A stretch of DNA of 33,800 nucleotides from Trueperaceae bacterium. GTDB taxonomy: Bacteria; Deinococcota; Deinococci; Deinococcales; Trueperaceae. This document shows, piece by piece, positions 16,037 to 33,800 of this stretch. The position numbers and the translations under genes are program-made. Where the stretch lies: positions 1-33,800 of the forward strand of contig JACCWH010000129.1 of assembly GCA_013697735.1 (NCBI GenBank). The letters are read 5' to 3'. Numbering within the stretch: the first letter of the stretch is position 1; the number at the start of each line of letters is the position of its first letter. The notes below the pieces were generated by a model that saw only the letters and a list, made by a program, of their open reading frames with translations, was not told where the DNA came from and did not search any database.

Positions 16037-16133
16037 GCGTCACCGATGTCGCCGCTCCGCTGCATTGCCGATGCCTCCGCCCTCTGGACCCGTGCGCTTC
16101 ACCGCATCTCGGACGAGGGCGAAGCTCACTCGA

Positions 16134-16139
16134 ACTCTA
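16134..16139 (-). promoter_or_regulatory. Possible MFS promoter with leader ORF
   Basis: TAGAGT on the minus strand lies four bases before a GTG at 16129 that opens a 29-codon frame. That frame ends with TGA at 16042-16040, one codon before the MFS ATG. This could be a leaderless leader peptide coupled to the transporter, or chance. The rest of the 231-bp divergent gap shows only the plus-strand promoter at 16237. Confidence 0.28.
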
Positions 16140-16236
16140 GCAAGTCGTCCTGCGGCGACGGCCGTTCTACTTCGCGTCCAAGCCTCGTGTCCCGGGGTCG
16201 GCGCACGCTCCACGCCCGTGCCGACCCGCGCTGCGA

Positions 16237-16260
16237 TACGCTTGCTTGCCCACAGGAGGT
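16237..16260 (+). promoter_or_regulatory. Short-leader promoter and Shine-Dalgarno site
   Basis: TACGCT (16237-16242) is followed by AGGAGGT (16254-16260), seven bases before GTG at 16268. A leader of about 20 bases would result. The strong ribosome site selects GTG at 16268 over ATG at 16277. Confidence 0.52.
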
Positions 16261-16267
16261 CCCGACC

Positions 16268-17287
16268 GTGCCGCTCATGATCACCATCGCGTCCTATCTG
16301 GAACCCGAGCACGTCGCTCGCATCCGGCGTGAGTTCCCCGACGTCCACGTCTCCTACGATCCCGCGCTGCTCGCACCGCCACGCTTCGCCGGCGACCACA
16401 CCGGCCGCCCCGACTTCCGACGCACCCCCGAGCAGGAGGCGCGGTTCCGCGCCATACTCGCCGAGGCCGACGTCCACTACGACTTCGATCGCACGCTCGC
16501 TGCGGAGCTCCCGACCCTCGCCCCGAAGCTGCGTTGGATCCAGGCGACCTCGTCGGGGATCGGGCCGTTCGTGCAGAAGGCGGGGCTCGACGCCACCGAC
16601 ATCATCATCACGAACGCCGCCGGTATCCACGCGGTGCCGCTTGCGGAGCACACCCTGCTCTCGCTGCTCTACTTCGTCAAGGACGTCCCGGCGAGGCTCG
16701 GCGACCAGCGCGCCCACGTGTGGGAGCGCTTCTCCGGACGCGAGCTCCGCGGCATGACCATCGCCGTCGTCGGCCTCGGTGCGGTGGGGCGAGAGATCGC
16801 TCGGCTCTGCCGTGCGGTCGGCCTACGCGTGATCGGCGTGCGGCGCACACCGGTCGACGATCCGGAGGCCCTCCACCTCGACGAGGCCACCACACCCGAT
16901 GCGCTCCACGAGGTACTGCCTCGGGTCGACGCCGTCGTGTTGATCTGCCCCCACACACCCGAGACCGAAGGGATGATGGGCGCCGCCGAGTTCGCTCGCA
17001 TGCGCCGCGGCTCGCTCCTCGTCAACATCGGTCGCGGCGCGCTCGTCGACGAGGATGCGCTCATCGCGGCGCTCCGCTCCGGACACCTTGGCGGCGCGGC
17101 GCTCGACGTGGCCAGCGTCGAGCCGCTCCCTGAAGGCAACGCCCTCTGGGACCTGCCGAACGTCTTCATCACCGCGCACTCAGCGAGCACCGTCGACAAG
17201 GAGAACGATCGTCTCACCGATCTCTTCTGCGAGAACCTGCGCCGCTTCCTCGCCAACGAGCCGCTGGTGAACGTGCTCAGGCTGTGA
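16268..17287 (+). CDS. D-isomer specific 2-hydroxyacid dehydrogenase
   Basis: 339 residues, cytoplasmic NAD(P)-dependent reduction of a 2-keto acid or its reverse. Seen: a divided substrate-binding domain, the Rossmann motif GLGAVG (169-174), VVLICPHTPETEGMMGAAEF, the catalytic arginine in LVNIGRGALVDEDALIAAL (about 256), the glutamate in ALDVASVEPLPEGNALWDLP, and the histidine in VFITAHSAS. This is the full catalytic set of the family. Close to glyoxylate/hydroxypyruvate reductase-like members, but the substrate cannot be assigned. The start is chosen from the Shine-Dalgarno sequence. A longer upstream reading (to 15854) overlaps the MFS gene and is rejected. Convergent with the DUF6157 gene, with an 18-bp gap. 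Confidence 0.92.
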   Translation: MPLMITIASYLEPEHVARIRREFPDVHVSYDPALLAPPRFAGDHTGRPDFRRTPEQEARFRAILAEADVHYDFDRTLAAELPTLAPKLRWIQATSSGIGPFVQKAGLDATDIIITNAAGIHAVPLAEHTLLSLLYFVKDVPARLGDQRAHVWERFSGRELRGMTIAVVGLGAVGREIARLCRAVGLRVIGVRRTPVDDPEALHLDEATTPDALHEVLPRVDAVVLICPHTPETEGMMGAAEFARMRRGSLLVNIGRGALVDEDALIAALRSGHLGGAALDVASVEPLPEGNALWDLPNVFITAHSASTVDKENDRLTDLFCENLRRFLANEPLVNVLRL

Positions 17288-17305
17288 GGGGAGCCGCCCT
17301 GCTCT

Positions 17306-17719
17306 TCAGCCGCGCATCCGCCGAAGGGCGACCTTCTGATGGAGCGCCGTATCGGCTCGCAGGCGACCGTAGGACGCGGTCTCCATCCCGACCAGGGCCA
17401 CCTTGCCCCCTTCGTCGAAGTGCAGGCCCCAGCCGTAGATCTTCGCGAGAGGCGACGTTCGCATGCACGCCAGCGGCTTCGAGAAGAGCGCCTGCCAGAG
17501 CTCGGGACGCTTCGTGTCGACGTCGGCAGCCGGAATGTTGCGACGCCACACGTGCACGGCGAACAGCACCTCCGATTGCCTGAGCACGTACGGCTGCGGC
17601 GCGATGAGTTCGTACTCGAGCATCGCGATGGACGTGTTGCCGCCGCGTTCCGCCGGCACGGTGCCGGCTCGCGCCGAGGTGTCTGGCGAAACAGCGATGA
17701 ACGTGCTGAAGTAGTCCAT
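17306..17719 (-). CDS. DUF6157 family protein
   Basis: 137 residues, function unknown. It opens MDYFSTFIAVSPDTSARAGT and has the family pattern: SIAMLEYELI, then EVLFAVHVWRRNIP, a serine pair in CMRTSPLAKIYGWGLHFD, and a basic end (KVALRRMRG). These match the small cytoplasmic DUF6157 proteins as I remember them. The start at 17719 is chosen because GGGAGT lies about seven bases upstream and the family begins here. A 59-residue upstream extension is rejected. A probable promoter is 57 bases upstream. Confidence 0.8.
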   Translation of the reverse strand: MDYFSTFIAVSPDTSARAGTVPAERGGNTSIAMLEYELIAPQPYVLRQSEVLFAVHVWRRNIPAADVDTKRPELWQALFSKPLACMRTSPLAKIYGWGLHFDEGGKVALVGMETASYGRLRADTALHQKVALRRMRG

Positions 17720-17775
17720 GGTCGACTCCCGGAGGGCGCGGAGGGCGACGCCACGCGGACGCGCTCCCTCACCAC

Positions 17776-17781
17776 AGCTTA
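17776..17781 (-). promoter_or_regulatory. Possible -10 box for the DUF6157 gene
   Basis: TAAGCT on the minus strand, 57 bases before ATG at 17719. No -35 of good quality is seen. The rest of the 228-bp gap (17720-17947) after the acyl-CoA synthetase stop shows nothing else I can support. Confidence 0.3.
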
Positions 17782-17947
17782 AGCGCCGTCGTCCTACGCT
17801 GCCTCCGACGTGAAGGTGGCAGTCTCTGCTCTGGGGCGGGAACATCGTGCTGGGGCTCGTATCATCGGCGTCGGTGGCGCCCGACGGTCTGCTCACGCGT
17901 CAAGGAGTAGCTTCATGCCCTCGTGCGACGGATCTCGGTGGGGAGCG

Positions 17948-19543
17948 TCATGCCGGCGGGTCCTGCGAATCGATCGGCGGTCGCTCCGTCGCGAGCTGCT
18001 CGCGAAGCACGTGCTTCTGGACCTTGCCGAGGGCATTTCTCGGGAGGGACGCGACGAAGTGGACATGCCGGGGCCTCTTGAAGCCGGCGATGCGTGCTCG
18101 GCAGTGTTCGATCAGCACGTCGGCGCTCGCCCCGGCGTCGCGGGGCACGACCACGGCGACCACCCGTTCGCCGAGATCGGCGTCCCGAACCCCCAACACC
18201 GCGGCCTCGAGTACCGACGCATGACGTTCCAGCACCTCCTCGACCTCACGCGGGTACACGTTGAATCCACCGCTGATTATGAGCTCCTTCGATCTGCCGA
18301 CGAGGTGATGGTAGCCGTCCTCGTCGACGTATCCGAGGTCCCCGGTCTTGAACCACCCGTCACGCGCGAAGGCTGCGCTCGTCGCCTCGTCGTCACGCCA
18401 GTAGCCTGCGAACACGTTGGGCCCGCGTAGCTGGATCTCACCCGTTCGACCCCGTACCACCAACTCGTCCGTCGTGGAATCCGCGATCCTGACGGCCACG
18501 CCGTCGAACGGCAGGCCGACGGAACCGGGTCGCCGTTCTCCCTTCAACGGATTCCCCAGGTTCATGACCGATTCCGTCATGCCGTAGCGTTCGAGGATGC
18601 GGCTTCCGAGTACGCGCTCGACGTCCTCGAGTAGGTCGGGTCCGAGGGGCGCCGACCCGGAGACGAGGAGCCGTATGGGCGGGGGCGTCTCTTCACGGCG
18701 GCGCGCCTCTTGGAGGAGCCGTCCGAACATCGTCGGCACACCGAAGAACATCGTCGTGTGTCCGGCGAGCAGCTCGTCGAACACGGCCTGCTCCTCGAAC
18801 GCGCGACAGAGGGTCATCGAGGAGCCCTGGTAGATCGTTCCGTGGAGACCGACTCCGAGGCCGTGCATGTGAAAGAGGGGGAGCGTCAGCAGCAGCCGAT
18901 CGCGTGCCGTCCAGCCCCACGCTCCGGTCACGGCGCGAACGTTCGTCAAGAAGTTCCCATGGCTCAACATCGCGCCGCGGCTCCGCCCGGTAGTGCCGGA
19001 GGTGTACATGATCACGGCGAGCTCGCCGTGGCTGCGGGGCACGACATCGATGGTGGCGTCGTGCGCACCGAAGGCGTTCCGCCAAGCGTCCACGCCCTCG
19101 CCCTCCCCCTGGAGCGGCACGACCGGAACGCCCAGTCGCGCGGCTGCCATCGACACGTCGTGATCGGCGGAGCCTTCTTCGTCGACCAGGACCAGGCGGA
19201 CATCGGCGTCCCCAACGACGTGCGCCAACTCGGCGAAGCGATAGCGGGTGTTGATCGGCACGGCGACGGCGCCCGTCCACAGCACCGCCAGATAGGCTTC
19301 GATGAACCTCGGTGAATTCTCCATGAAGAGCGCGACTCGGTCGCCCGGGCGCACACCCCACCCGACGAGCGCACCGGCCCCTCGAGTGCTGCGGTCCGAC
19401 ATTTCGCGATACGTGACCTTCGTGCCCTCGAACTCGACGAATACGGCGTCGGGCGTCCGCTCCGCCACCCGCGCGAACGCGTTCGTCAGGCTCGCCGGTA
19501 GGCTCATACCGCGGTCCGGTTCGGTCGACGCTGGCGGCTCCAT
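17948..19543 (-). CDS. Acyl-CoA synthetase (AMP-forming ligase)
   Basis: 531 residues. It activates a carboxylic acid through an acyl-adenylate to its CoA thioester. Seen: the P-loop IMYTSGTTGRSRGAMLSHGN (about 160-180), LPLFHMHGLGVGLHGTI, YGMTESVMN (adenine/acyl site), the hinge KTGDLGYVDEDGYHHLVGRS, and the catalytic lysine K507 in RNALGKVQKHVL. SGGFNVYPREVEEVLERH is also typical. The overall order resembles malonyl-CoA synthetase (MatB) and related medium-chain ligases, and the substrate is unknown. ATG at 19543 is 13 bases after the glgX stop, so the two are probably one transcript. ATG at 19507 is a second choice. No clear Shine-Dalgarno sequence for either. A much longer reading runs into glgX and is rejected. 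Confidence 0.9.
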   Translation of the reverse strand: MEPPASTEPDRGMSLPASLTNAFARVAERTPDAVFVEFEGTKVTYREMSDRSTRGAGALVGWGVRPGDRVALFMENSPRFIEAYLAVLWTGAVAVPINTRYRFAELAHVVGDADVRLVLVDEEGSADHDVSMAAARLGVPVVPLQGEGEGVDAWRNAFGAHDATIDVVPRSHGELAVIMYTSGTTGRSRGAMLSHGNFLTNVRAVTGAWGWTARDRLLLTLPLFHMHGLGVGLHGTIYQGSSMTLCRAFEEQAVFDELLAGHTTMFFGVPTMFGRLLQEARRREETPPPIRLLVSGSAPLGPDLLEDVERVLGSRILERYGMTESVMNLGNPLKGERRPGSVGLPFDGVAVRIADSTTDELVVRGRTGEIQLRGPNVFAGYWRDDEATSAAFARDGWFKTGDLGYVDEDGYHHLVGRSKELIISGGFNVYPREVEEVLERHASVLEAAVLGVRDADLGERVVAVVVPRDAGASADVLIEHCRARIAGFKRPRHVHFVASLPRNALGKVQKHVLREQLATERPPIDSQDPPA

Positions 19544-19556
19544 CGCGAGGGAGCGC

Positions 19557-21755
<2,199 letters not shown>

Positions 21756-21764
21756 GGCGACGGA

Positions 21765-21770
21765 AGTCTA
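21765..21770 (-). promoter_or_regulatory. Leaderless or near-leaderless glgX promoter (-10 box)
   Basis: TAGACT on the minus strand ends nine bases before GTG at 21755. This is slightly further than the other leaderless boxes here. No Shine-Dalgarno sequence is present. Confidence 0.45.
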
Positions 21771-21831
21771 CGTCGGCGCGCGGGCGAACTCTGAGGCGAA
21801 GCCCACCCTCTCGCCAGAAGCGACCCTCCGC

Positions 21832-21845
21832 GCGCCGCACGGCGC
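21832..21845 (-). terminator. Small hairpin after mqnA
   Basis: GCGCC and GGCGC form a 5-bp stem around a 4-base loop, four bases after the mqnA stop on the minus strand. No T-tract follows. It is weak evidence for an operon end. Confidence 0.25.
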
Positions 21846-21848
21846 AGT

Positions 21849-22706
21849 TCAGAGCGTCCAGTAGCGGAGCTGGTCGGGCTCGCAGGTCGCGTCGATGCGG
21901 CGAGCGAACGCCTCTAGACCGTGCCGGTCGGGGGGCTCGAGAAAGTACCGGAAGTTCGCGAGGTAGCGCAGGAGCACCTCGGGCGACAACCCGAGCGCCT
22001 CCGCCGCGGTGGCGGCGACGGCCGCAAGGTGCCCTAGGCCACGCCCGCGGGCCGCGCGCAGCTCCGCCACGAGCCTCGCGCTCGGTGGCCGCTCGGCGCG
22101 AGCCGCCCACACCGCGAACGTGAACGGCAGGCCGGTGCGTGCGTACCACGCCTCACCGAGGTCGGTTTGCTGGGGCACCACGCCGTGGACGCTGCGCCGC
22201 GCCACCGATTCCACGAGCGCCGCGTCGCCGATGAGCAGGGCGGCGTCGTGGTCACGAAGCATCGCGTCGAGGTCGGGGACGTGCCCCACGAGGGTGGGCG
22301 TGATCCCATCCTCGGCCAGCAGCACCTCGAGGAGCGCCACGCTGGTCGCCGAGTCCGACGAGACCGCGATGCTCGTGCCCGACAACTCGCGCCATGGAGC
22401 GCGGTGAAAGAGCATCACGCTGGAAACGGGGCCGATGGTGGCGATGCTGAAATCAGGCAGCGCCCGGAGCACGTCGCGGTGCCGGATGAACTCCACGCTC
22501 GACACCAGCGTGAGGTCGATGTCACCCGCGAGCAGCCGTCCATTGAGCTCGGTCGGAACGCCGCGCTCGAAGTGGGCGCCCGTCCACGGCTCGAGCCCCC
22601 AGTGGAGGGGTGCGACGTTGGTGTACGACACGATGCCGAGTCGCTCCCCGACGACCGGCGTCGCTGCGTTCGCCCCCTCGTGAGCGTGGCCGACGACCTC
22701 GTTCAT
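21849..22706 (-). CDS. mqnA: Chorismate dehydratase (futalosine pathway)
   Basis: 285 residues. MqnA converts chorismate to 3-enolpyruvyl-benzoate, the first step of futalosine-type menaquinone synthesis. It has the periplasmic-binding-protein-like fold of the family. Seen: LGIVSYTNVAPLHWGLE at the start, GVPTELNGRLLAGDIDLTLVSSVEF, the ligand-loop text TSIAVSSDSATSVALLEVLL, and DAALLIGDAAL. The start ATG overlaps the mqnE stop by four bases (ATGA), so translation is coupled. The first 20 residues are a variable extension. With mqnE before it, this supplies both early enzymes of the route. mqnB, mqnC and mqnD are not in the window. Confidence 0.93.
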   Translation of the reverse strand: MNEVVGHAHEGANAATPVVGERLGIVSYTNVAPLHWGLEPWTGAHFERGVPTELNGRLLAGDIDLTLVSSVEFIRHRDVLRALPDFSIATIGPVSSVMLFHRAPWRELSGTSIAVSSDSATSVALLEVLLAEDGITPTLVGHVPDLDAMLRDHDAALLIGDAALVESVARRSVHGVVPQQTDLGEAWYARTGLPFTFAVWAARAERPPSARLVAELRAARGRGLGHLAAVAATAAEALGLSPEVLLRYLANFRYFLEPPDRHGLEAFARRIDATCEPDQLRYWTL

Positions 22707-23860
22707 TCGAAGACGCGTACCTCGTTGTAGAGGGCGTCGCGCCGCACCGCGATGCGACCGGTGTCCTGGATGAGGCGCACGAGCTCCTCCTCCGTCATGC
22801 CGGCCTCGGTCACCGCGCCCGACGCGTGTGCGATGCGCTCGTCCTTGATCGTGCCGTCGACATCGGAGACGCCGGCCGCCAACGACAACTGCGTCTGCTC
22901 GGGCGTGATCATGATCCAGTAGCCCTTGATGTGCGGGACGTTGTCGAGGTAGATCCGCGCAACGGCCAGGTTGCGGAGGTCATCGAGGCCGGTGGTGTGC
23001 ACGCGCTTCCCCATCGCCTCGAGCTCCGCGGCGAGTGGATTGTTGTCGGGCTGATACGCGAGTGGGATGAAGCTCATGAACCCGCCGGTCTCGTCCTGCA
23101 GGTCGCGGAGGCGGTCCATGTGGTCGAGGCGGTCCTCGAGGCTCTCGACGTGGCCGTAGAGCATCGTCGCGTTCGTGGGGATCTCCAGTTCGTGGGCGGT
23201 TCGATGGACCTCGAGCCACCCTTCGGCCGTGACCTTGGCACGCGCGATCCGCCGCCGCACGTCTTCGGCGAAGATCTCGGCGCCACCCCCCGGCATCGCC
23301 ACGAGCCCCGCCTCCTTCAGTTCAGCGAGCACCTCTCGATAGGTGAGGCGCGGCCTGGTGATCTTGGTGAAGTGGTGGATCTCGGCCGCGGTCCACGCCT
23401 TGACCTGCACGCCGGGGTAGCGCTCGGTGAGTCCGCGCACGAGGTCGAGGTAGTACTGCCACGGACGCTTGGGATGGTGGCCCGAGGCGATGTGGATCTC
23501 GGTGAGATCGGGGTGGAGGTGCGTGTCGACGTAGGCCCACACGTCCTCGAGGTCGTAGTCCCAGACCCCTTCCTCGTCCATCTTCCGGGCGAAGCCGCAG
23601 AATGTGCAGCCGACGTAACAGACGTTCGTCTGCGAGAGCCGCAGCGAGTGGACGAAGTAGGCCTTCTCGCCTACGATGCGTGCACGGACGGCGTCCGCGA
23701 GGCGGAGCAGGCCCGGCACGTCGCGCGTGCGGTACAGCGTCATGCCCTGTTCGAAGGTGATCCGTCGCCCGGCGAGGGCGGCGTCGCGAATCGGCTCGAG
23801 AGCAGCGTCACGCACCCGGACGTCGGCGGTGGGTGGCGAGGGTGACGGCGCGACGCTCAT
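22703..23860 (-). CDS. mqnE: Aminofutalosine synthase (radical SAM)
   Basis: 385 residues. MqnE joins 3-enolpyruvyl-benzoate and S-adenosylmethionine into aminofutalosine. Seen: the 4Fe-4S motif NVCYVGCTFCGF (C81, C85, C88), EIHIASGHHPKRPWQYY, LVAMPGGGAEIF, NATMLYGHVESLEDRLDHM, and FMSFIPLAYQPDNNPL. The CYVGCTFCGF form and the ASGHHP motif point to MqnE and not the related cyclase MqnC. The first 20 residues are variable. ATG is fixed by TATCGT six bases upstream. First gene of the mqnE-mqnA operon. Confidence 0.93.
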   Translation of the reverse strand: MSVAPSPSPPTADVRVRDAALEPIRDAALAGRRITFEQGMTLYRTRDVPGLLRLADAVRARIVGEKAYFVHSLRLSQTNVCYVGCTFCGFARKMDEEGVWDYDLEDVWAYVDTHLHPDLTEIHIASGHHPKRPWQYYLDLVRGLTERYPGVQVKAWTAAEIHHFTKITRPRLTYREVLAELKEAGLVAMPGGGAEIFAEDVRRRIARAKVTAEGWLEVHRTAHELEIPTNATMLYGHVESLEDRLDHMDRLRDLQDETGGFMSFIPLAYQPDNNPLAAELEAMGKRVHTTGLDDLRNLAVARIYLDNVPHIKGYWIMITPEQTQLSLAAGVSDVDGTIKDERIAHASGAVTEAGMTEEELVRLIQDTGRIAVRRDALYNEVRVFE

Positions 23861-23866
23861 ATCCAG

Positions 23867-23872
23867 ACGATA
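23867..23872 (-). promoter_or_regulatory. Leaderless mqnEA promoter (-10 box)
   Basis: TATCGT on the minus strand lies six bases before ATG at 23860. CTGGAC (23895-23890) is placed 17 bases upstream of it and could be a weak -35. No Shine-Dalgarno sequence is present. Confidence 0.6.
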
Positions 23873-23938
23873 TCACGGTTGCTTTACGCGTCCAGGACGC
23901 TGGATTGCACGGTATCGCAGGCTACCGTCGCGATCACG

Positions 23939-25327
23939 TCAGATGTGCAGCGCCCGACCGTCGACGGCCAGCGCCGCCTCTTTGACCGCCTCCGCGAGGG
24001 TGGGGTGGGCGTGGACCACGCGTGCGATGTCCTCACTACTGGCGCCGAAGGCCATCGCAGCAACGCATTCGGCGATCAGGTCGCCCGCGCGAGCGCCGAC
24101 GATGTGGACCCCGAGCACGCGGTCGGTCTCCTCGTGGGCGAGGATCTTGACCTTGCCAGCCGTCAGGCCGAGGGCGCGGGCGCGGCCGTTCGCTTGGAAG
24201 GGGAACGTACCCTTGCGGTAGGGCGTCCCGTTCTCCTTCAGCGCCTCTTCGGTGTGCCCGACCGAGGCGATCTCGGGTTCCGTATAGACGACGGTGGGCA
24301 CGTGGAGGTACTCGACGTGCGGCTGGGCGCCCGTCGCGATCATCTCCGCTACGGCCACGCCGTCCTCTTCGGCCTTGTGCGCGAGCATCGGTCCGTGGAT
24401 GAGGTCGCCGATGGCGTAGACGCGCTCGAGGTTCGTGGTGAATCGACGGTCGACCACGACGCGACCACCGGCGTCGGTCTCGACACCCGCCGCCTCGAGG
24501 CCGAGCCCTTCGCTATTGGGGATCCGGCCCGTCGCCACCAGCACGCACTCGGTCTCCACGCCATCGCCGCCCTCGACCTCGACCGTAGCCCCCTTCTTCG
24601 TCACCTTCACACCCGTGACGCGTACGCCGGTGCGGATGTCGAGCCCTTGCTTGGCGAAGATCTTGCGCGACTCCTTGGCGATCTCGTCGTCGACCCCTGG
24701 GAGGATTCGGTCGAGATACTCGAGGACCGTCACCTTCGCGCCGAGGCGCGCCCAGACGGAGCCGAGTTCGAGTCCGATCACGCCGGCGCCGATCACGACC
24801 AGCGACTCGGGAACGGCGTCGAACGCCAGCGCCTCCGTGCTGGTCACGACGCGCTCACCGTCCGTCTCGACGCCACGGAGGGGGGCAACGCGACTGCCGG
24901 TGGCGAGCACGACGTGCTCGGCGCGCAATTCCTGCTCGGCGTCGGCGCCGTGCACGATCACGTGCCCGGTCCCCTTCAACTCTCCGCGCCCTTCGAAGCG
25001 CTCGATACCGTGCTTCTTGAAGAGATAGGCTACGCCGTCGGTGTTGCTCTTCACGACGGCGCTCTTGCGCTCCATCATCGTGTTCAGGTCGAGTTCGACC
25101 GTCCCGACGATCACACCGTGCTCCTCGAGCGCGTGTCCTGCCATCGCGAAGCGTTCACTCGACTCGAGCAGCGCCTTGCTGGGGATGCAGCCGACGCGAA
25201 CGCACGTGCCTCCCAAATCGCTCTCCTGCTCGACGCAGGCCACGGCGAGCCCGAGCTGGGCGGCTCGGATAGCGCAGACGTAGCCGCCCGGGCCCGCGCC
25301 GATGATGATGAGGTCGAAGTCTCGCAT
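23939..25327 (-). CDS. lpd: Dihydrolipoyl dehydrogenase (E3)
   Basis: 462 residues. This FAD enzyme reoxidises dihydrolipoamide with NAD for 2-oxo acid dehydrogenase complexes and the glycine cleavage system. Seen: FAD motif IIIGAGPGGYVCAIRAAQLG, redox disulfide C42/C47 in GGTCVRVGCIPSKALLES, the NAD motif VVIGAGVIGLELGSVW, RVYAIGDLIHGPMLAHKA, and the catalytic H441/E446 pair in HAHPTLAEAVKEAAL. ATG at 25327 is preceded by GGAGG. An in-frame ATG 19 codons upstream lies before the predicted transcript start and is rejected. It is on the same strand as sucA and sucB but is separated from them by the plus-strand msrAB gene, so it has its own promoter. Confidence 0.96.
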   Translation of the reverse strand: MRDFDLIIIGAGPGGYVCAIRAAQLGLAVACVEQESDLGGTCVRVGCIPSKALLESSERFAMAGHALEEHGVIVGTVELDLNTMMERKSAVVKSNTDGVAYLFKKHGIERFEGRGELKGTGHVIVHGADAEQELRAEHVVLATGSRVAPLRGVETDGERVVTSTEALAFDAVPESLVVIGAGVIGLELGSVWARLGAKVTVLEYLDRILPGVDDEIAKESRKIFAKQGLDIRTGVRVTGVKVTKKGATVEVEGGDGVETECVLVATGRIPNSEGLGLEAAGVETDAGGRVVVDRRFTTNLERVYAIGDLIHGPMLAHKAEEDGVAVAEMIATGAQPHVEYLHVPTVVYTEPEIASVGHTEEALKENGTPYRKGTFPFQANGRARALGLTAGKVKILAHEETDRVLGVHIVGARAGDLIAECVAAMAFGASSEDIARVVHAHPTLAEAVKEAALAVDGRALHI

Positions 25328-25332
25328 CGTTT

Positions 25333-25350
25333 CCTCCGACGGGCATGGTA
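25333..25350 (-). promoter_or_regulatory. Short-leader lpd promoter and Shine-Dalgarno site
   Basis: TACCAT (25350-25345, minus strand) is followed about seven bases later by GGAGG (25337-25333), five bases before ATG at 25327. The leader would be about ten bases, just enough to hold the ribosome site. Confidence 0.5.
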
Positions 25351-25435
25351 CCGCGCCCCACTTCTCATAATGTGCGTCCGGCACGGTCGTCGTCTTGACG
25401 ACGGTGAAGTGTGCCTGGAGGCCTCAGGCTGAGCC

Positions 25436-26590
25436 ATGACACAAACACGGCTCCTCCCCCCCGCCGGCGTCGGCACCGGCGTACTGCTCATCGCGTTCGC
25501 CCTCGCGGCCCTGCTGCTCGCCCCCTGGGGGCGTGGCGCCCAGGAGCCCGTCGCCCCCGCCTCCAACGCCGTCGCGTACTTCGCGGCCGGCTGCTTCTGG
25601 TGCGTCGAAGCCGATCTGCAGAAGGTTCCAGGTGTCCACGAGGTCGTCTCCGGCTTCATGGGCGGTCACGTCGACGACCCCACCTACGAGCAGGTCACGC
25701 GCGGCGACACGGGACATCGGGAGATCGTCGCGGTCTACTACGATCCCGATCTCGTCGAGTACCAGGCGCTCCTCGACGCCTTCTGGCGCGCGCACGATCC
25801 GACCGACGCCGGGGGATCGTTCGTCGACCGTGGTTTCCAGTACTCGTCGGCGATCTACGTCGTCGACGCGGCGCAGCGGCGGCTCGCCGAGGGGAGCCTG
25901 AGCGCGCTGGCGAGCTCAGGAACGTTCGACGAGCCCATCGCGACCGTGATCGAGGACGCAGCGACGTTCTACGCGGCGGAGGATTACCACCAGGACTTCG
26001 CGGCCCGGAACACGATCCGCTACAACGTCTACCGCGCGGCTTCGGGGCGTGACCGCTTCGTATCGAGCGTCTGGGACGGCGACAAGACGGTCTACCAACT
26101 CACCGAACTGCTGCCCTCGTGGCTGGTGCAGCACCCCGGAGACGCTGCGCTGCGCGAATCGCTCGACGATCTCACGTACCGCGTGACGCAGCGAGACGGT
26201 ACGGAGCGCGCGTTCAGTCACCCCTACGACGCTCAGTACGAAGACGGCATCTACGTCGACGTCGTGTCGGGCGAACCGCTCTTCTCGTCACTCGACAAGT
26301 TCGATTCGCGGACCGGTTGGCCGAGCTTCACGCAGCCCATCGATGCGCGGTACGTGGTCACGAAGGATGACCGGAGCCTCTTCACGGTGCGCACGGAAGC
26401 CCGCAGCCGTTACGGCGACACGCATCTCGGGCACGTCTTCGACGACGGTCCCGAACCGACCGGTAGACGCTGGTGCATCAACGGCGTAGCGCTGCGTTTC
26501 GTCCCGCTCGCGGAGCTCGCGGCCGAGGGGTACGGCGACTACCTCGCGAGCTTCGAGGAGGCGGGCATCGCGGTCGCCGGCGGGCGGTAG
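25436..26590 (+). CDS. msrAB: Membrane-anchored or secreted MsrA-MsrB fusion
   Basis: 384 residues. It reduces both S- and R-methionine sulfoxide in proteins. An N-terminal hydrophobic segment (about 11-30) suggests export or a membrane anchor, so it would repair envelope proteins. MsrA (about 45-215): catalytic C53 in AAGCFWCVE, with GFMGGHVDDPTYEQVTRGDT and EDYHQDFAARN. MsrB (about 245-365): YRVTQRDGTERAF, FDSRTGWPSFTQPI, and catalytic C347 in GRRWCINGVALRFVP. The two zinc-binding CxxC pairs of MsrB are absent, and no other cysteines remain as resolvers apart from C56. The Shine-Dalgarno sequence is weak. The stop codon is part of a 12-bp direct repeat. Divergent from lpd, convergent with sucB. 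Confidence 0.95.
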   Translation: MTQTRLLPPAGVGTGVLLIAFALAALLLAPWGRGAQEPVAPASNAVAYFAAGCFWCVEADLQKVPGVHEVVSGFMGGHVDDPTYEQVTRGDTGHREIVAVYYDPDLVEYQALLDAFWRAHDPTDAGGSFVDRGFQYSSAIYVVDAAQRRLAEGSLSALASSGTFDEPIATVIEDAATFYAAEDYHQDFAARNTIRYNVYRAASGRDRFVSSVWDGDKTVYQLTELLPSWLVQHPGDAALRESLDDLTYRVTQRDGTERAFSHPYDAQYEDGIYVDVVSGEPLFSSLDKFDSRTGWPSFTQPIDARYVVTKDDRSLFTVRTEARSRYGDTHLGHVFDDGPEPTGRRWCINGVALRFVPLAELAAEGYGDYLASFEEAGIAVAGGR

Positions 26591-26613
26591 GCGCGAACCC
26601 ATAGGCGCGAACC
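26588..26613 (+). repeat. Direct repeat overlapping the msrAB stop
   Basis: TAGGCGCGAACC occurs at 26588-26599 and again at 26602-26613, a period of 14 bases. The first copy contains the msrAB stop codon. It looks like a small tandem duplication. Confidence 0.75.
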
Positions 26614-26627
26614 GACCTCGCTGCAGA

Positions 26628-26778
26628 GACCCAAGTTCGACAGTTCGACGTGACCTGAACACCCGCGTTCCGTGAGGGACGCGGGTTCACTCGTGGCTCG
26701 AGGTCCTATCCCATGACGACACCACGAACGAACCACGTCACCAACGCACGTCGATCATCTCACCGTCGAACTTGGGTC
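26628..26778. repeat. 151-bp structure bounded by a perfect 14-bp inverted repeat
   Basis: GACCCAAGTTCGAC (26628-26641) is repeated in reverse complement as GTCGAACTTGGGTC (26765-26778). The bases outside both ends are AGA (26625-26627 and 26779-26781), which could be a 3-bp target duplication. The right arm runs into the sucB stop codon. A second strong hairpin lies inside. No ORF of note is inside. It may be a small non-autonomous mobile element or a large termination structure between convergent genes. Confidence 0.55.
26656..26689. terminator. Hairpin with GTGA tetraloop between msrAB and sucB
   Basis: TGAAC-(2-base bulge)-CCGCGTTCC pairs with GGGACGCGG-GTTCA, closing a GTGA (GNRA-type) loop at 26672-26675. 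The stem is about 14 bp with one G-T wobble. It is the strongest hairpin in the window and stands between two convergent genes. No T-tract follows on either strand, so it may be a barrier, a 3'-end stabiliser or part of the surrounding repeat. Confidence 0.55.
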
Positions 26779-28132
26779 AGACCTCGATGAGCATCCGGGC
26801 GGGCTTCTCGATCGCGTCCTTCACGCGCTTGAGGAAGGTGACCGCTTCGCGACCGTCGACGATTCGGTGATCGTACGTGAGCGCGAGGTACATCATCGGC
26901 CGGACCTCGACGCGTCCTTCGATCGCCACCGGGCGCTCTTGGATGGCGTGCATCCCGAGGACCCCGGACTGCGGCGGGTTCACGATCGGCGTCGACATGA
27001 GCGAGCCGAAGATCCCGCCGTTCGTGATGGTGAACGTGCCCCCCTGGAGGTCTTCGGGGGTGAGCTTGTTCTCGCGGGCGCGCGCTCCGAAGTCGCCGAC
27101 CGCCTTCTCCACTTCGGCGAACGAGAGGAGTTCGGCGTTGCGCAGCACCGGCACGACCAGCCCTTTGGGCGTGGACACTGCGACGCCGATGTCGTAGTAG
27201 TTCTTGTAGACGATGTCGCGCTCGCGGATCTCGGCGTTGAGCTGCGGGATCTGCTTGAGACCATCGATCACGGCTTTGACGAAGAACGACATGAAGCCGA
27301 GCCGTACGCCGTAGCGCTTCTCGAAGTTGTCGCGGTACTCGCCCCGTAGCGCCATCACGGCGCTCATGTCGGCCTCGTTGAAGGTCGTGAGGAGCGCCGC
27401 CGTCTGCTGGGCATGCACGAGCCGCTCGGCGATCTTGCGACGCAGCGGCGACATGGCGACGGATTCCTCTTGGCGGTGAGCCGCAGCACCCGGGGCGGGC
27501 GTGCTCGGCTCCGTGGCGTCCGAGGCGCTGCGCGTGGTCGCCTGAGCACTGGTCGCCTGAGCACCGCCGGCCGCCGCCCGGTCCGTCGCGGCGTCGAGAT
27601 ACCGCTGGACGTCCTCCTTGAGGATCCGGCCGCCCGGGCCGCTCGCCTCGACGTCGGCAGGGGCAACACCGTGCTCGTCGAGCAGCCGCTGCGCGGCAGG
27701 CATCACGCGCGCCTCGCCGTCGGCCGACGTGGGCTCGGTACCCGACGCGGGCTCCGCAGCCGCCGTGGGCGCGTCCTCGGCCGTCTCGGGGTCTGGCGCT
27801 GCGGCGTCATCCTCGGCCGGTGTCGACGATGCCGACGAGTCCGTGGTCGCAGGCTCGGACCCGGTGTCGGTTTCCGAACTCTTCCCCGTTCCACCATTCG
27901 ACTCCACGTGGGCGATCACCTCGCCGACGTTCGCCGTGTCGCCGGCTTGCTTCACGACCTTGCCGAGCACCCCGGCAACGGGCGCCGAGATCTCGAGGGT
28001 CGCCTTGTCGGTCTCGATCTCCACGAGCGCCTCGTCCTTGGCGACCTCGTCACCCTCTTGTTTCAACCAGGTCCCGATGAAGACCTCGCTGATCGACTCG
28101 CCGACGCTCGGCACGGTCACTTCGACGGGCAT
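26777..28132 (-). CDS. sucB: 2-oxoglutarate dehydrogenase E2, dihydrolipoyl succinyltransferase
   Basis: 451 residues, core of the 2-oxoglutarate dehydrogenase complex. Seen: one lipoyl domain (1-77) with K43 in EIETDKATLEIS; a long Ala/Pro/Thr/Glu-rich linker (about 80-140); the peripheral-subunit-binding domain (about 143-179, RVMPAAQRLLDEHGVAPADV); a second linker; and the acyltransferase domain with MSPLRRKIAERLV, TFTITNGGIFGSLMSTPIVN and the catalytic H422/D426 in LTYDHRIVDGREA. The last motifs are those of succinyltransferases. ATG at 28132 follows AGGAG. A 78-codon upstream extension is rejected because it overlaps sucA and the lipoyl domain starts here. It lies 70 bases after sucA, on the same transcript. 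Confidence 0.96.
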   Translation of the reverse strand: MPVEVTVPSVGESISEVFIGTWLKQEGDEVAKDEALVEIETDKATLEISAPVAGVLGKVVKQAGDTANVGEVIAHVESNGGTGKSSETDTGSEPATTDSSASSTPAEDDAAAPDPETAEDAPTAAAEPASGTEPTSADGEARVMPAAQRLLDEHGVAPADVEASGPGGRILKEDVQRYLDAATDRAAAGGAQATSAQATTRSASDATEPSTPAPGAAAHRQEESVAMSPLRRKIAERLVHAQQTAALLTTFNEADMSAVMALRGEYRDNFEKRYGVRLGFMSFFVKAVIDGLKQIPQLNAEIRERDIVYKNYYDIGVAVSTPKGLVVPVLRNAELLSFAEVEKAVGDFGARARENKLTPEDLQGGTFTITNGGIFGSLMSTPIVNPPQSGVLGMHAIQERPVAIEGRVEVRPMMYLALTYDHRIVDGREAVTFLKRVKDAIEKPARMLIEV

Positions 28133-28202
28133 GACATCTCCTCGGACGACGCGGAGGGACCGCGGTCGCTGACGTGCAGTGGGGGGTGCGACGCGACGGG
28201 CG

Positions 28203-31007
28203 TCACGCCGGCACCTCGAATGCGGCGCGAACCAGCTCGGCCTGCTCGATCTTGTGGCTACTCGACGATCCGGTGGCGGGGCTCGCACTCGCGGGACGCG
28301 CGACGACCGAGAAGGGTCGCCCGTCGACCTCGCCCCCCCAGCGCACGCGTAGGTAGCGCCATGCACCCATGTTCTCCGGCTCCTCCTGCACCCACGTCAC
28401 CGCGACGTCGGAGCCGTAGGGGGCGAGCGCCTCCTGCACGAGATCGGTCCGCAGCGGGTAGAGCTGTTCCAGGCGGACGATGGCGATGTCGTGGCGACCA
28501 CCCTCCTCACGCGCAGCGTCGAGGTCATAGTAGACCTTCCCCGAACACAGGAGCACCTTCCGAACGCCGGCGGGATCGACGTCGTCGCCGATGACGCGAC
28601 GGAAGCCGCCGGAGGTGATGTCGTCGAGGTCGGAGACGGCCCGGGGGTGCCGGAGGAGGCTCTTGGGCGTCATGACGATGAGTGGCTTGCGCCACGGTCG
28701 GACCACCTGGCGCCGTAGGACGTGAAAGTAGTTCGCGGGGGTCGTGGGGTAGACCACCTGCATGTTGTCTTCGGCGCAGAGCTGTAAGAACCGCTCGAGT
28801 CGGGCGCTCGAGTGCTCGGGCCCAGCACCTTCGAAGCCGTGCGGTAGCAACAACACCAGCCCGGAGAGTCGCCGCCACTTGTCCTCACCGGAAGCGATGA
28901 ACTGGTCGATCACCACCTGAGCGGTGTTGACGAAGTCGCCGAACTGCGCCTCCCACGCCACGAGGCCGTCCGGCATGTCGAGTGAGTACCCGTACTCGAA
29001 GCCGAGCGTCCCCTGTTCGTTGAGGGGCGAGTTGCACACGTCGAAAACGCCGCCGTCGTGCGCGAGGGTCGCGAGCGGCACGAACCGGGCCCCGGTCTCC
29101 ACGTCGTGGAGCACGCTGTGGCGGTGGCCGAAGGTGCCGCGCTCCGTGTCCTGTCCGGTGAGCCTGACGCGCACCCCGGCGGCGACGAGCGAGCCTATGG
29201 CCAGCGCCTCCCCCGCCGCCCAATCGAGCGACCGCTCACCGGCAGCCATCTGTCCTCGTTGCTGCAGGTAGCGCGTGATCTTCGGGTTCGCCTCGAACGA
29301 ATCGGGCACGGTGGCGAGCGTTCGAAGGATCGTCTCGGCCTGCGCTCGCTCGATGGCGGTGTCGACCTCGGGCGCCTCCGCCTCCGGACCCCCCTGGTAC
29401 GCCTTCCAGAAGCCTTCGAACGCGGAGTAGTGCGGCTTGAATTCATCGCCGCGCGCCGCGCTCAGCTCCCGCTCGAGCAGCTCGCGCCGCGACTCGGCGA
29501 TCGCGTCGGCCTCCTCACGCGTGATGCCACCGAGGGTCAGCAGTCGCTCCAGGTAGCCCTCGCGCACGGTGGGGCGCTTCCGGATGCGGTCGTACATTCC
29601 CGGCTGCGTGAAGGAGGGCTCGTCACCTTCGTTGTGCCCCCAGCGTCGATAGCAGTACATGTCGACCACGACGTCGCGGCCGAACGTACTGCGGAAGTCC
29701 ATGGCGAGCTCGATCACCTGGGCCACGGCTTCGGGGTCTTCACCGTTCACGTGGAAGATCGGGCTCTGCAACATCTTGGCGATGTCGCTCGCGTAGGTCG
29801 TGGAGCGGCCCTGGTCGGGGGCGGTGGTGAAGCCGATCTGGTTGTTGACGATCACGTGCAGGGCACCGCCGACGCTGTAGCCCGCGAGTTCCGACATGTT
29901 GAGCGTCTCCTGGACCACGCCCTCGCCGATGAAGGCAGCGTCGCCGTGGATCAGCACTACGAGTCCGCGCTCGCGGCGCTCGTCGCCGACGCGGTCCTGC
30001 TTCGCACGAACGCGACCCATGGCGACCGGATTGACGAACTCGAGGTGCGAGGGGTTGAACGCGAGCGACAGGTGGATCTTGTCGCCCCCTTGCGTGACCC
30101 AGTCGTTCGAGTAGCCGAGGTGGTACTTGACGTCGCCGCGGCCGCGATGGAGTTCAGGATCCTTGTCCTCGAACTCGCGGAAGATCGCGCGTGGATGCTT
30201 GCCCATGATGTTCGCCAGCACGTTCAGACGACCGCGGTGGGCCATGCCGAGCACCACCTCGCGCACCCCCTGCTGACCTGCCTTCTCCAGCGCGAGGTCG
30301 AGGAGCGGAATGAGTGATTCGCCCCCCTCGAGCGAGAAGCTCTTCGCACCCACGAACTTCTTCTGGATGAACTCCTCGAACATGACCGCGTCCGTGAGCT
30401 TCGTCAGGATGCGGAGCTGCGTGTCGCGGCTCAGCTCGAGGTGGTTGCGGCTGCGCTCCATGCGCGCCTGGAGCCAGATGCGCACCTCGAGGTCGTCGAT
30501 GTGCATGAACTGCGCACCGATCGATCGTGTGTAGGTCTCCTGCAGCGCTTCGATCACATCGCGAACGGTGCGCGCTTTCGCGAACGTGGTCTCGAGCACC
30601 GGCCGGTCCATGTCGGCATCCGTGAAGCCGTAGTACGACGCGTCGAGCTCGGGCACCTCGCGCGACCGGGCGCCGAGGGGATTGAGGTCGGCCACCCGGT
30701 GCCCGCGGACGCGGTAATTGCGAACGAGTCGATCGAGCCGCTGCGTGAGCTCGGCGTCTGCCGTCTCCACGGCGAGGCCCGGACCACCACCGCCGGGGCG
30801 CGGCGGGTTGAACAGGCTCGCCGGCCGGAAGGAAGGCCCGAAGCCTTGGCGCCTCGAACCGTTCGCCGGCGCGCCGTTGCCAGGTAGTGCGGAGAAATAG
30901 GTGCGCCACGCCTCCGGCACGGTATCCGGATCGAGGAGATACGCCGCATACAGGTCCTCGACGAACGCAAGGCTGGAGCTGTTCAGGCTCGAGTCGACCT
31001 CATCCAT
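28203..31007 (-). CDS. sucA: 2-oxoglutarate dehydrogenase E1 (thiamine diphosphate)
   Basis: 934 residues. It decarboxylates 2-oxoglutarate and passes the succinyl group to E2 in the TCA cycle. Seen: the N-terminal motif [16 protein letters not shown] that contacts E2; [28 protein letters not shown]; the thiamine-diphosphate region [19 protein letters not shown] followed by [59 protein letters not shown]; and [14 protein letters not shown] near the end. Length is normal. ATG at 31007 has GAGG a short distance upstream. It is divergent from the PfkB kinase (174-bp gap), and its own promoter there is not clear. An extended TGTAGGAC near 31088-31095 on the minus strand is a weak candidate. Confidence 0.97.
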
Positions 31008-31170
31008 GCATGACCTCGTGCGAGAGGGTCTGGACCCCTCCCGCGCTCTCGACGGAGGCCGCTCGGCGCCGCGCCGCGGCCGTCGTCCTACAGGTGTGTT
31101 GTACCACTTCTTGCGGCGTCCGGAACGGTGTAGAACACGCTTTCGCCCGCTCGAGCGGCCCCCGGCGCGG

Positions 31171-31176
31171 TATCCT
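31171..31176 (+). promoter_or_regulatory. Leaderless promoter of the PfkB kinase (-10 box)
   Basis: TATCCT is five bases before ATG at 31182. No Shine-Dalgarno sequence is seen. The short distance is at the lower limit of the boxes in this window. Confidence 0.52.
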
Positions 31177-31181
31177 GGGTC

Positions 31182-32153
31182 ATGTCCGCATCACCGCTCG
31201 TCCTGGCGCTGGGCGAACTGCTCATCGACTTCGTGCCCGAACGGCGTGGCGTGACGCTCGCCGAGGCGCAGACGTTCATCAAGGCTCCGGGCGGCGCCCC
31301 GGCCAACGTGGCCGTGGGCGTCGCGCGGCTCGGCGTGACGAGCGGCTTCATCGGCAAGGTGGGCGATGATCCCTTCGGGCACCATCTCGCGGACGTGCTG
31401 CGCGAGGCCGGTGTCGACGTTCGCCAGCTCGTGTTCGACGACGCCGCACGCACCGCGCTCGCCTTCGTCTCGCTCACGGCCGAGGGGGAGCGCGACTTCA
31501 TGTTCTACCGCCACCCCTCCGCCGACATGCGTCACCGCCCCGAGGAGGTCGACGACGCCGTGGTGGGCGCAGCCGCGATCCTGCACGTCGGCAGCATCTC
31601 GCTCATCGGCGACAGCTCGGCGCGGGCGACGCGCCATGCGATCCAGGTCGCCCGCGACGCCGGCGTTACGATCTCGTACGACCCCAACCTGCGCTTGCCC
31701 CTCTGGCCCTCGGCGGCGGCAGCCGCGTCGGCCATCCGCTCGCTCCTCCCGCTCGCCCACGTGGTGAAGGTGAGCGACGAAGAGGTCCACTTCCTCACGG
31801 GTCGCGACGACGTCGCGGCGGCGCGCTCGCTGTGGCACGAGGGCTGCCGCCTCATGCTGGTAACGCGCGGTGAGGAAGGCGTCGACTACCTCCTCGCCGA
31901 GGGCGGTGGCAGCGTGCCGGGATTCCCGGTCGACATCCACGACACCACCGGTGCGGGTGACGCCTTCATGGCCGCGGTGCTCGCCGCGCTCGCCACACGC
32001 CCCGATCTGATGCACGACCGCGAGGCGCTCGAGCGAGCGCTCCGGCGCGCCAATGCCTTCGCCGCCCTCACGACCACCCGACCGGGCGCGATCCCGGCGA
32101 TGCCGTCCCTCGAAACGCTCGAAGCGTTCCTCGCGCAGCACACTTCGGACTGA
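31182..32153 (+). CDS. PfkB-family carbohydrate kinase, fructokinase-like
   Basis: 323 residues, phosphorylates a sugar with ATP in the cytoplasm. Seen: [10 protein letters not shown] at the start, the family signature 1 in [30 protein letters not shown]-type text ([18 protein letters not shown]), [12 protein letters not shown], and signature 2 DTTGAGDAF with catalytic base D260. The FRxPSADM-like strand (FYRHPSADM) is typical of fructokinases of the ScrK type, but 2-keto-3-deoxygluconate kinase is possible. The start is fixed by the -10 box five bases upstream. It stands alone, divergent from sucA. Confidence 0.92.
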
Positions 32154-32175
32154 GCCTGCAATTTAGCCTGTGCGT

Positions 32176-32189
32176 CGCGTGCGCACGCG
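32176..32189. repeat. 14-bp perfect palindrome
   Basis: CGCGTGCGCACGCG reads the same on both strands. It lies 23 bases after the pfkB stop. In GC-rich DNA this is only mildly unusual. It could form part of a pfkB termination structure or bind a dimeric protein. Confidence 0.5.
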
Positions 32190-32194
32190 CTGGC

Positions 32195-32229
32195 GAGCGG
32201 GGGCAGCTCTTGCCCACGGGTGCCCGCTC
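32195..32229 (+). terminator. Nested stem-loop downstream of pfkB
   Basis: GAGCGGG (32195-32201) pairs with CCCGCTC (32223-32229), and GGGCA/TGCCC (32201-32215) forms an inner hairpin. It may end or protect the pfkB transcript. No T-tract. Confidence 0.3.
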
Positions 32230-32269
32230 CACACACGCGGCGTCGGCCCGGCCACCCTGCTGGCCCACG

Positions 32270-32290
32270 AAAAAAGCGCCCTTGGGCGCT
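32270..32290 (-). terminator. Intrinsic terminator on the minus strand
   Basis: On the minus strand, AGCGCCC-AA-GGGCGCT is followed directly by TTTTTT (32275-32270). A 7-bp GC-rich stem plus a six-T tract is the only textbook rho-independent terminator in the window. No recognised minus-strand gene precedes it. It stands seven bases after the end of the candidate short ORF at 32297-32479. Confidence 0.75.
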
Positions 32291-32296
32291 CGCGTC

Positions 32297-32479
32297 TCAT
32301 CTACTGATAGACATCATCATACGCCGGTATGCGCTATTCGTCAAGACCTTGCGGCGCACTTCGTCGGAATCACCTGCAAAGACTCCTGCGGAGGCCACGA
32401 ACCGGCCGATGAAGCGGGCGATCTGCCCTCCACGCCGGACCTCCACGCCATGCGAGCGGGCGTGGTAGGACGGTGGCAT
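32297..32479 (-). CDS. Candidate short ORF upstream of the minus-strand terminator
   Basis: 60 codons from ATG at 32479, or 49 from GTG at 32446. The product matches nothing I recognise. It is basic, with RRGGQIARFIGRFVASAGVF in the middle and a basic end (RRKVLTNSAYRRMMMSISR). Support: its stop lies seven bases from the intrinsic terminator on the same strand, and most codons in its 5' part end in G or C as in neighbouring genes. Against: no clear Shine-Dalgarno sequence or -10 box, the ATG overlaps the start codon of the divergent dehydratase gene, and codon use near the 3' end is more AT-rich. It could instead be a small RNA or the remnant of a longer gene. Confidence 0.35.
   Translation of the reverse strand: MPPSYHARSHGVEVRRGGQIARFIGRFVASAGVFAGDSDEVRRKVLTNSAYRRMMMSISR
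32466..32471 (+). promoter_or_regulatory. Probable leaderless promoter of the dehydratase (-10 box)
   Basis: TAGGAC lies six bases before ATG at 32478. The last base departs from TANNNT, but the spacing and the missing Shine-Dalgarno sequence match the other leaderless starts. Confidence 0.4.
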
Positions 32480-33479
32480 GTCGCCGTCCGCCGCCCCCCT
32501 GCCGTCGCTCGAAGTGCTCGAGGAGGCGCACGCTCGCGTCGCCCCCTCCGTCTTCCGTACGCCGCTGGTCCAACTCCCGCTCCAAGGAGCGTCGGACGTG
32601 TTCGCGAAGGCCGAGAACCTTCAGCGCACCGGCTCCTTCAAGATTCGAGGCGCGAGCAATTTCCTGGCGCGCATGACACCTGAGGCTCGCACGCGCGGCG
32701 TGGTCGCACACTCGAGCGGCAATCACGCCCAGGGCGTCGCCTGTGCGGCTCATGCGTTCGGCATTCCCGCCACGATCGTGATACCCGAAGGAGCGGCCCA
32801 GGTCAAAGTCGCACGCACGCTCGCCTGGGGCGCGGAGGTCGTGCGCTGCGAGAACACCGCCGCCGATCGCGAGGGGACGGCGGCGCGTATCGCCGGGGAG
32901 CGCGGCGCCACGGTCGTGCCGCCGTTCGATCACCCGTGGATCATCGAGGGGCAAGCCGGGGTCGGGCTCGAGCTCCTCGACGACCTCCCCGACGTGGCCA
33001 ACGTGCTCGTCTGCGTCGGTGGCGGCGGTCTGCTCGCCGGCGTCGTGAGTGCGCTCCGCGCTCGCGGTTCCCGGGCGCAGGTGATCGGCGTCGAACCGGC
33101 GCTGGCGGCGGACGCGGGGGCGTCGTACGCAGCGGGAGAGATCGTCACGTGGCCCGCCGAGGACGTCAACCGCACCGTTGCCGACGGTGTTCGCACGCAA
33201 GCGTTGGGACACCACACGTTCGCGATCATCCGTTCGGCGGTCGACGCCTTCGTCTCCGTGGAAGAGGAGGCGATCATGGATGCCGCGACTTGGCTCGTGC
33301 GCGAAGGCCATCTCGTCGTCGAGCCGACCGGCGCGCTGGCGCTTGCAGCCTATCGGTCGCTCGTCAGGGGCGTCGGGCCGGTCGCGCTGCGTCGGGGATC
33401 GACCGCACTCATCGTGTCGGGTGGCAACGTCGACGCGCGCGTGCTCACGGCGCTGCTCCAACGCGAACTCCCTCGCTGA
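32478..33479 (+). CDS. Threonine/serine dehydratase-like PLP enzyme
   Basis: 333 residues, fold type II pyridoxal-phosphate enzyme. The likely reaction is deamination of threonine or serine to the 2-oxo acid. A serine or threonine racemase of the same family is possible. Seen: the Schiff-base lysine K55 in RTGSFKIRGASNFL, the substrate loop SSGNHAQGVACAAHAFG, VIPEGAAQVKVARTLAWGA, the phosphate-binding loop VCVGGGGLLAGVVSALR, and ALIVSGGNVD near the end. There is no C-terminal ACT regulatory domain, so this is the short catabolic form, not feedback-regulated biosynthetic IlvA. Start from the probable -10 box. ATG is the first in frame. Confidence 0.9.
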   Translation: MSPSAAPLPSLEVLEEAHARVAPSVFRTPLVQLPLQGASDVFAKAENLQRTGSFKIRGASNFLARMTPEARTRGVVAHSSGNHAQGVACAAHAFGIPATIVIPEGAAQVKVARTLAWGAEVVRCENTAADREGTAARIAGERGATVVPPFDHPWIIEGQAGVGLELLDDLPDVANVLVCVGGGGLLAGVVSALRARGSRAQVIGVEPALAADAGASYAAGEIVTWPAEDVNRTVADGVRTQALGHHTFAIIRSAVDAFVSVEEEAIMDAATWLVREGHLVVEPTGALALAAYRSLVRGVGPVALRRGSTALIVSGGNVDARVLTALLQRELPR

Positions 33480-33548
33480 CGATCCGGCGCCCGCCCCGGC
33501 GTTCCCCGCCCGTGCGGCCCACGGGCGTGCAGCACGAGCCACGCCGGG

Positions 33549-33554
33549 TACCAT
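33549..33554 (+). promoter_or_regulatory. Leaderless promoter of the last gene (-10 box)
   Basis: TACCAT lies seven bases before ATG at 33562. An in-frame ATG at 33553 overlaps the box itself and would lie upstream of the transcript start. Confidence 0.52.
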
Positions 33555-33561
33555 GTTCGCG

Positions 33562-33800
33562 ATGACGCCGCTCGCCAGCGTGATGGTGCTGGCCTTCCTC
33601 CTCCTGATCGTGCTGGCACTGGTCGTGTGGGCGCTCCTGCAACCACGGCCGGAGCAGCGCCCGAAGGAGGAGCAGTCCCGGACGAGGTCGGCCGCGTTGC
33701 GACGCGAGATGAGCGTGACGAACGACGACGTGCGCGGGGCGAAGGTGCCGCCGAAGCGCCCCGAAGGTGTCGACGACGCCTTCGAGCGTTTTCTGCACGC
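33562..33800 (+). CDS. Single-pass membrane protein, 5' part
   Basis: 79 codons are present and the frame is open to the end of the window. It begins MTPLASVMVLAFLLLIVLAL, a membrane segment of about residues 5-27, then a charged cytoplasmic-type stretch (PRPEQRPKEEQSRTRSAALR) and DDAFERFLHA at the edge. Not recognised. The start is chosen by the -10 box seven bases upstream, with no Shine-Dalgarno sequence. ATG at 33553 is the alternative. Confidence 0.68.
   Translation, partial: MTPLASVMVLAFLLLIVLALVVWALLQPRPEQRPKEEQSRTRSAALRREMSVTNDDVRGAKVPPKRPEGVDDAFERFLH

Follow-up and report, generated by a model that had tools for sequence, protein, structure and literature searches.

A candidate ultra-short transcription unit in Deinococcota, with a conserved promoter block coupled to an intrinsic terminator

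A minus-strand terminator and the small frame beside it

Which transcript, if any, ends at a minus-strand terminator that lies between two plus-strand genes? In the window (the whole 33.8-kb stretch of DNA analysed here), a hairpin followed by six T residues (32291-32270) is flanked by genes coding for a PfkB-family kinase and a PALP-family dehydratase (Table 1). A preliminary description had taken it as the end of an unannotated minus-strand transcript, specifying a small protein or a small RNA, that began near or inside the dehydratase gene and ran antisense to it. Our analysis partly confirmed its observation and partly supported its interpretation: the hairpin and its T tract are present, and a predicted minus-strand transcript ending at 32270 is still the best reading. 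A small RNA fits this reading; a protein does not, the frame being poorly kept at the same locus in relatives.

Because a lax terminator scan returned 17 sites in the window (7 in positions 1-15000, with 4.5 expected, and 10 in positions 15000-33800, with 5.2 expected), the description of the hairpin as the "only" terminator is valid just for the combination of hairpin and T6; TTTTTT occurred a single time over the two strands together, against 0.39 matches expected from shuffles. Between the hairpin and most of the adjoining 60-codon frame sits a sigma-70-type promoter that had been missed (32344-32316, minus strand; 10/12 matches, 17-nt spacer). It was the only such site reported in the window, and since two window scans gave chance expectations of 0.9 and 0.6 sigma-70-like sites, a single one is at chance level and its weight comes from conservation elsewhere. 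The predicted RNA start (32309-32307) was placed about 7-9 nt after the -10 element, which is about 170 nt away from the dehydratase and points away from it, contrary to the antisense arrangement proposed earlier. RNA polymerase would thus start at about 32308 and be released at about 32270, the predicted product being about 39 nt long and made up of a short 5' segment, the hairpin and a U tract.

Table 1. Features at the hairpin locus, in window coordinates
Feature	Position	Strand	Basis
PfkB-family kinase	31182-32153	+	gene call and family match
T6 tract of terminator	32270-32275	-	sole TTTTTT of the window
Terminator hairpin, GAGCGCC-CAAG-GGCGCTT	32274-32291	-	terminator scan; pairing kept across elements
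Predicted tiny RNA, 38-40 nt	32270-32309	-	predicted from promoter and terminator
TATCA motif and predicted RNA start region	32305-32309	-	ATCA conserved after -10
-10, TATGAT (consensus TANNNT)	32316-32321	-	T, A and final T 100% to two digits in 129 score-chosen elements
Spacer, 17 nt, AATAGCGCATACCGGCG	32322-32338	-	conserved AT, GCATA and G by column frequencies
-35, TTGACG	32339-32344	-	T, T, G and C 100% to two digits, A 99%, G 97% (129 elements); collecting script demanded TTGAC or one of six listed variants, so most positions fixed by rule
Upstream GCAW box (GCAA here)	32349-32352	-	20 bp before spacer GCATA; G 96%, C 89%, A 95% (129 elements)
60-codon frame	32297-32479	-	judged not a gene; weak similarity at same locus, no family match
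PALP-family dehydratase	32478-33479	+	gene call and family match

The frame exists as described, with 60 codons, an ATG and a stop 5 bases before the stem, and it also stays open upstream in relatives, which is often the case in DNA this GC-rich. A first protein search with its product found 7 other genomes (E values of 0.007-0.09), the best of which (G006) aligned through the promoter, which the frame reads as LTNxAYR. When the window locus was aligned from 9 genomes, promoter and hairpin aligned well and the rest poorly; for this reason, and because the row of the same-genus genome G001 was cut at the promoter, the 60 amino acids were searched directly. In tblastn against 11 loci at the window's place (8 genomes, some represented twice), the best two matches had E values of 0.007 (34%) and 0.011 (32%) over 47 amino acids that included the promoter, and in G001 only the promoter's 15 amino acids matched. 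Pfam and NCBIfam searches of the product gave no match. Similarity of the product was at best weak, and a small-protein gene, for which the open frame and the two weak matches might speak, was rejected as very improbable because its sequence is unkept at the same locus even within the genus and belongs to no family in these databases.

A conserved promoter block and its coupling to the terminator

Using the window's 104 bp as a query, blastn revealed a second copy in the same genome (contig C185, 80% over 86 nt, E 6.6e-13) and matches in 22 other genomes at an E value of at most 0.01 (23/61 including its own). Alignment of the copies gave a single block with hardly any gaps, GCAW-N3-CTTGACGAAT-N2-YGCATA-N2-G-N-GTA-N3-T, after which come ATCA and a hairpin whose sequence varies. 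In full, the conserved block reads GCAW-N3-CTTGACG-MAT-N2-YGCATA-N2-G-N-GTA-N3-T, and in f4 g20 genomes it takes the form GCATA-N3-CTTGAC-GCATA-N2-GCATA, with repeated half-sites. Its spacer pattern matched once in the window and never in 100 shuffles of it. A matrix built from 126 elements without those of the window's own genome scored the window site at 49.8 bits and the runner-up position of the window at -15.3.

Conservation of a promoter spacer across a phylum is rare. The repeated GCATA half-sites suggest a DNA-binding regulator, and since the spacer and the positions around -50 are so conserved, a conserved protein of this kind probably controls initiation; that it reads the GCATA repeats themselves is a view toward which we lean, judging from the pattern of the sites. 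The unit would then predict a widely conserved, new transcription regulator in Deinococcota.

To examine what follows the promoter, 129 distinct elements scoring above 20 bits were taken from among the matches listed; they were fetched by their promoter match and are phylogenetically non-independent. Only three scored below 30 bits, each with a hairpin. An intrinsic terminator started within 50 nt of the -10 element in 121 of the 129, as against 5 of 129 going outward upstream and 12.7 of 129 in shuffled downstream stretches, and the hairpin was kept at the window's own locus in related genomes. By eye, 7 of the 8 elements that lacked a terminator by rule showed a hairpin whose T tract is poor, and one (L175) had none. 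Stems began either 8-13 nt (short form) or 19-32 nt (long form) after the -10 element, the window copy being of the long form. The 121 hairpins had 61 distinct 5' arms, which indicated that pairing is kept while sequence changes, an indication qualified by pairing having been a search condition. All columns outside block and hairpin carried less than 1 bit, the highest (0.9) being the T that precedes GCAW (64%) and the one that directly follows the T run (77%). We also rejected a longer hairpin that would span the T run, since such a stem scored 4.61 against 4.77 when permuted among 31 long elements.

Taken by itself, the window has roughly 1.5 to 2 times the expected number of terminator-like sites and the expected number of promoter-like ones, which would suit a chance hairpin beside a chance promoter; phylum-wide conservation and the coupling contradict this explanation, and we regard it as practically excluded. 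It is unusual for a promoter to be followed nearly always, within a few bases, by a terminator, and this near-constant pairing argues that a tiny RNA, or aborted transcription, is the point of the arrangement. It is quite likely that the locus is a tiny transcription unit, as predicted from a sigma-A-type promoter coupled to a terminator stem starting 8-32 nt after the -10 element.

The predicted RNA is little more than the terminator. Across elements its length was estimated by a rough formula at roughly 24-52 nt, with a median of 28. Its only conserved sequence is ATCA, found within 16 nt after the -10 element in 80 of 129 elements and in 2 when each was shuffled once; conservation is much stronger in the promoter spacer than in the RNA. 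As the RNA body is unconserved between genomes, a base-pairing target is not indicated.

Spread, copies and genomic places

A sequence model of the block, R1, was built from 41 sequences, one of 42 (L077, from a Taylorbacteria record) having been removed by hand. It matched 38 of 39 genomes of the family at an E value of at most 0.01, with 1-5 matches each (26/26 good genomes), and 98 of 111 genomes of the phylum at an E value of at most 0.001; the other 13 gave no match. No Deinococcus genome was identified among the 111. Assignment of the phylum to Deinococcota rests on a pattern scan of named genomes, in which 22 of 23 stretches lay in Truepera, Trueperaceae, Deinococcales or Deinococcota records and the other was the Taylorbacteria one. 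Spread to the phylum of this last record was dismissed, since its site scored just 15 bits in its own genome and R1 matched none of 96 genomes of that phylum, a null result of little weight because these genomes are small (0.5-2 Mb) and include no known positive.

An origin from phages or plasmids was likewise rejected. IMG/VR gave one promoter look-alike without a hairpin, about the number estimated for chance, and blastn against plasmids gave two short matches with E values of 0.3 and 0.9. The viral look-alike (L213:2768-2980, minus strand) is followed after 6 nt by a leaderless frame of 57 aa, which appears ribbon-helix-helix-like by eye; this gene was discounted as a candidate for the regulator, having no match in the 111 genomes, a result of little weight on its own.

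Certain copies have stayed at one genomic position. In 9 genomes, from 4 genera, the unit sits at the window locus with the PfkB gene next beyond its terminator; in 8 of them PALP is found on the other side, and in the ninth (G028) the contig ends at that point. A second kept place, downstream of a YciI gene, was found in 8 genomes of 4 genera (two Pfam-checked); the third copy of the window's own genome (G000:C231) is at this place. Mean identity was 0.76 within f1 genomes (54 pairs) and 0.66 between them (2292 pairs), and copies at the same place in different genera averaged 0.74 (25 pairs) and 0.68 (23 pairs) at the two places, a pattern suggesting that vertical descent and local duplication have each played a part.

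Many genomes have several copies, tandem clusters occur (for example G019:C6, at 403, 708 and 962), and G041 has 11 among the matches listed, several of them 85-93% alike. A MITE- or REPIN-like element, non-autonomous and mobile, with promoter and hairpin as incidental cargo, could also account for this. Against this, which we consider unlikely, stand the copies that keep their place across 4 genera, the low information of the columns outside the unit, and most f4 genomes, which had a single match each among the matches listed. Two arrangements of copies were recorded: three tandem units that occupy about 600 bp ahead of a large gene (L111:403-1010; two in the relative L118), and, in a genome of 3,260,398 bp (G014), two units facing each other across an aldehyde dehydrogenase gene (L120:3478-5086). 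Units of G014 lie at 8,984-9,031 (-), 157,970-158,017 (+), 159,550-159,592 (-) and 2,802,154-2,802,201 (+).

Orphan and leader copies

Genes around the elements were called with a codon-usage caller, which sees proteins only and places some starts wrongly; a tRNA-Trp is thus not counted as a gene ahead. A gene in sense was found ahead of 28/30 elements in f4, 4/4 in f3, 28/69 in f1, 6/16 in f5 and 4/10 in f2. The unit is mostly an orphan in Trueperaceae-like genomes, the window unit included, the gene ahead of it (PfkB) being antisense; in f4 genomes it is usually the 5' leader of a gene. Genes ahead in f4 include 11 rtcB loci and 10 S4/pseudouridine-synthase loci (one of each Pfam-checked), and in f3 the gene was gatB in 4/4 (one Pfam-checked). 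In both, the start codon often lies within about 20 nt after the T run. In one f4 locus (L133:5-2548), the rtcB behind the unit apparently contains an intein: Pfam's splicing domain for inteins matched at E 2.6e-8 with 34.2 bits, slightly below the cut-off of 35.8.

A tRNA scan of 30 loci found tRNA-Trp in one (L045, the place of L148) and none in 29, and the unit was accordingly rejected as a tRNA promoter. At L045:1501-1711 (f2), the tRNA-Trp shares the strand of the unit and follows it at a distance of some 60 nt.

That f4 units are usually 5' leaders, of rtcB and pseudouridine synthase genes, suggests an attenuated promoter. The reading that we favour, and hold to be probable on the sequence evidence, is that the window carries one copy of a conserved ultra-short Deinococcota transcription unit, consisting of a sigma-A-type promoter and an intrinsic terminator, and that the module acts as such a promoter. 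In leader copies (f4 and f3), read-through past the hairpin would express the next gene; in orphan copies, that is, most Trueperaceae-like ones and the window's, the output would be a free hairpin RNA.

Control of neighbours in cis might be the main job, with the act of transcription rather than the RNA being what matters, whether as leader attenuator, as RNA polymerase roadblock or as insulator. We put this forward tentatively. It would agree with the sense gene ahead in 32/34 of the f4 and f3 elements and with their close start codons, and also with f1, where 33 of the 46 elements that have a gene within 100 nt ahead face its 3' end. However, the gene ahead differs in each lineage, and because the flanking genes differ between loci in f1, no common cis target emerges there. 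Short elements, moreover, have few nucleotides before the hairpin, too few to accommodate a riboswitch or leader peptide, which makes a built-in sensor hard to see.

About equally likely, and equally tentative, is that the free RNA acts in trans, as a family of small RNAs in which a 5' AUCA tail, the hairpin and the U tail form a functional molecule that binds protein or RNA. ATCA at a near-fixed distance and the greater likeness of copies within a genome than between f1 genomes would fit such a molecule. This likeness could, however, reflect recent duplication, and same-place copies across genera come close to it at one place (0.74), though less so at the other (0.68); the diversity of 5' arms leaves no conserved pairing seed in the hairpin, and the median predicted length is very short for a pairing small RNA.

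Bacterial intergenic small RNA genes with an intrinsic terminator have their own promoter and end in a hairpin and U tail. By sequence the unit resembles them in its promoter upstream on the same strand, its hairpin with U tract and its intergenic position, but it differs in the shortness of the predicted RNA and in a spacer conserved far above it. Transcription attenuators have a terminator in the 5' leader, and f4 and f3 copies are alike in having the hairpin after the promoter and ahead of the start codon; they differ in that the short form begins a few nucleotides from the 5' end without a visible sensing part, and many f1 copies have no sense gene. Deinococcus genomes contain small noncoding repeats (SNR) that are dispersed between genes. 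These are alike as dispersed intergenic repeats of the same phylum and are set apart by description only, the present unit being few-copy and built as promoter plus terminator.

No known RNA family was recognized: at gathering score, Rfam had no match at an element in 11 sources, the single match being the tRNA in L148, and a weak cmscan overlap of sroD (RF00370) with 32348-32270 on the minus strand was at chance level, with 17.7 bits where the gathering score is 50, and E = 1. An earlier description of the unit was not found in the literature searched, which leaves most subscription papers outside, nor in the portions of PMC8632094 and PMC6798082 reached by a term search.

Beyond the single unit, it is conceivable that Deinococcota possess phylum-wide genes that are terminator only, in which one conserved regulator governs promoters that fire a hairpin RNA of 24-52 nt or instantly stop polymerase, copied within genomes and serving in f4 and f3 as an attenuator for RNA-processing and tRNA-related genes; we offer this as a tentative picture. 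The f4 groups, which we take to be Thermus- and Meiothermus-like and culturable, mostly have a single match per genome, so that a unit this short should be easy to delete and map there. Among f1 genomes, the units at L117 and L128 lie near genes that appear toxin-antitoxin- or RHH-like by eye.
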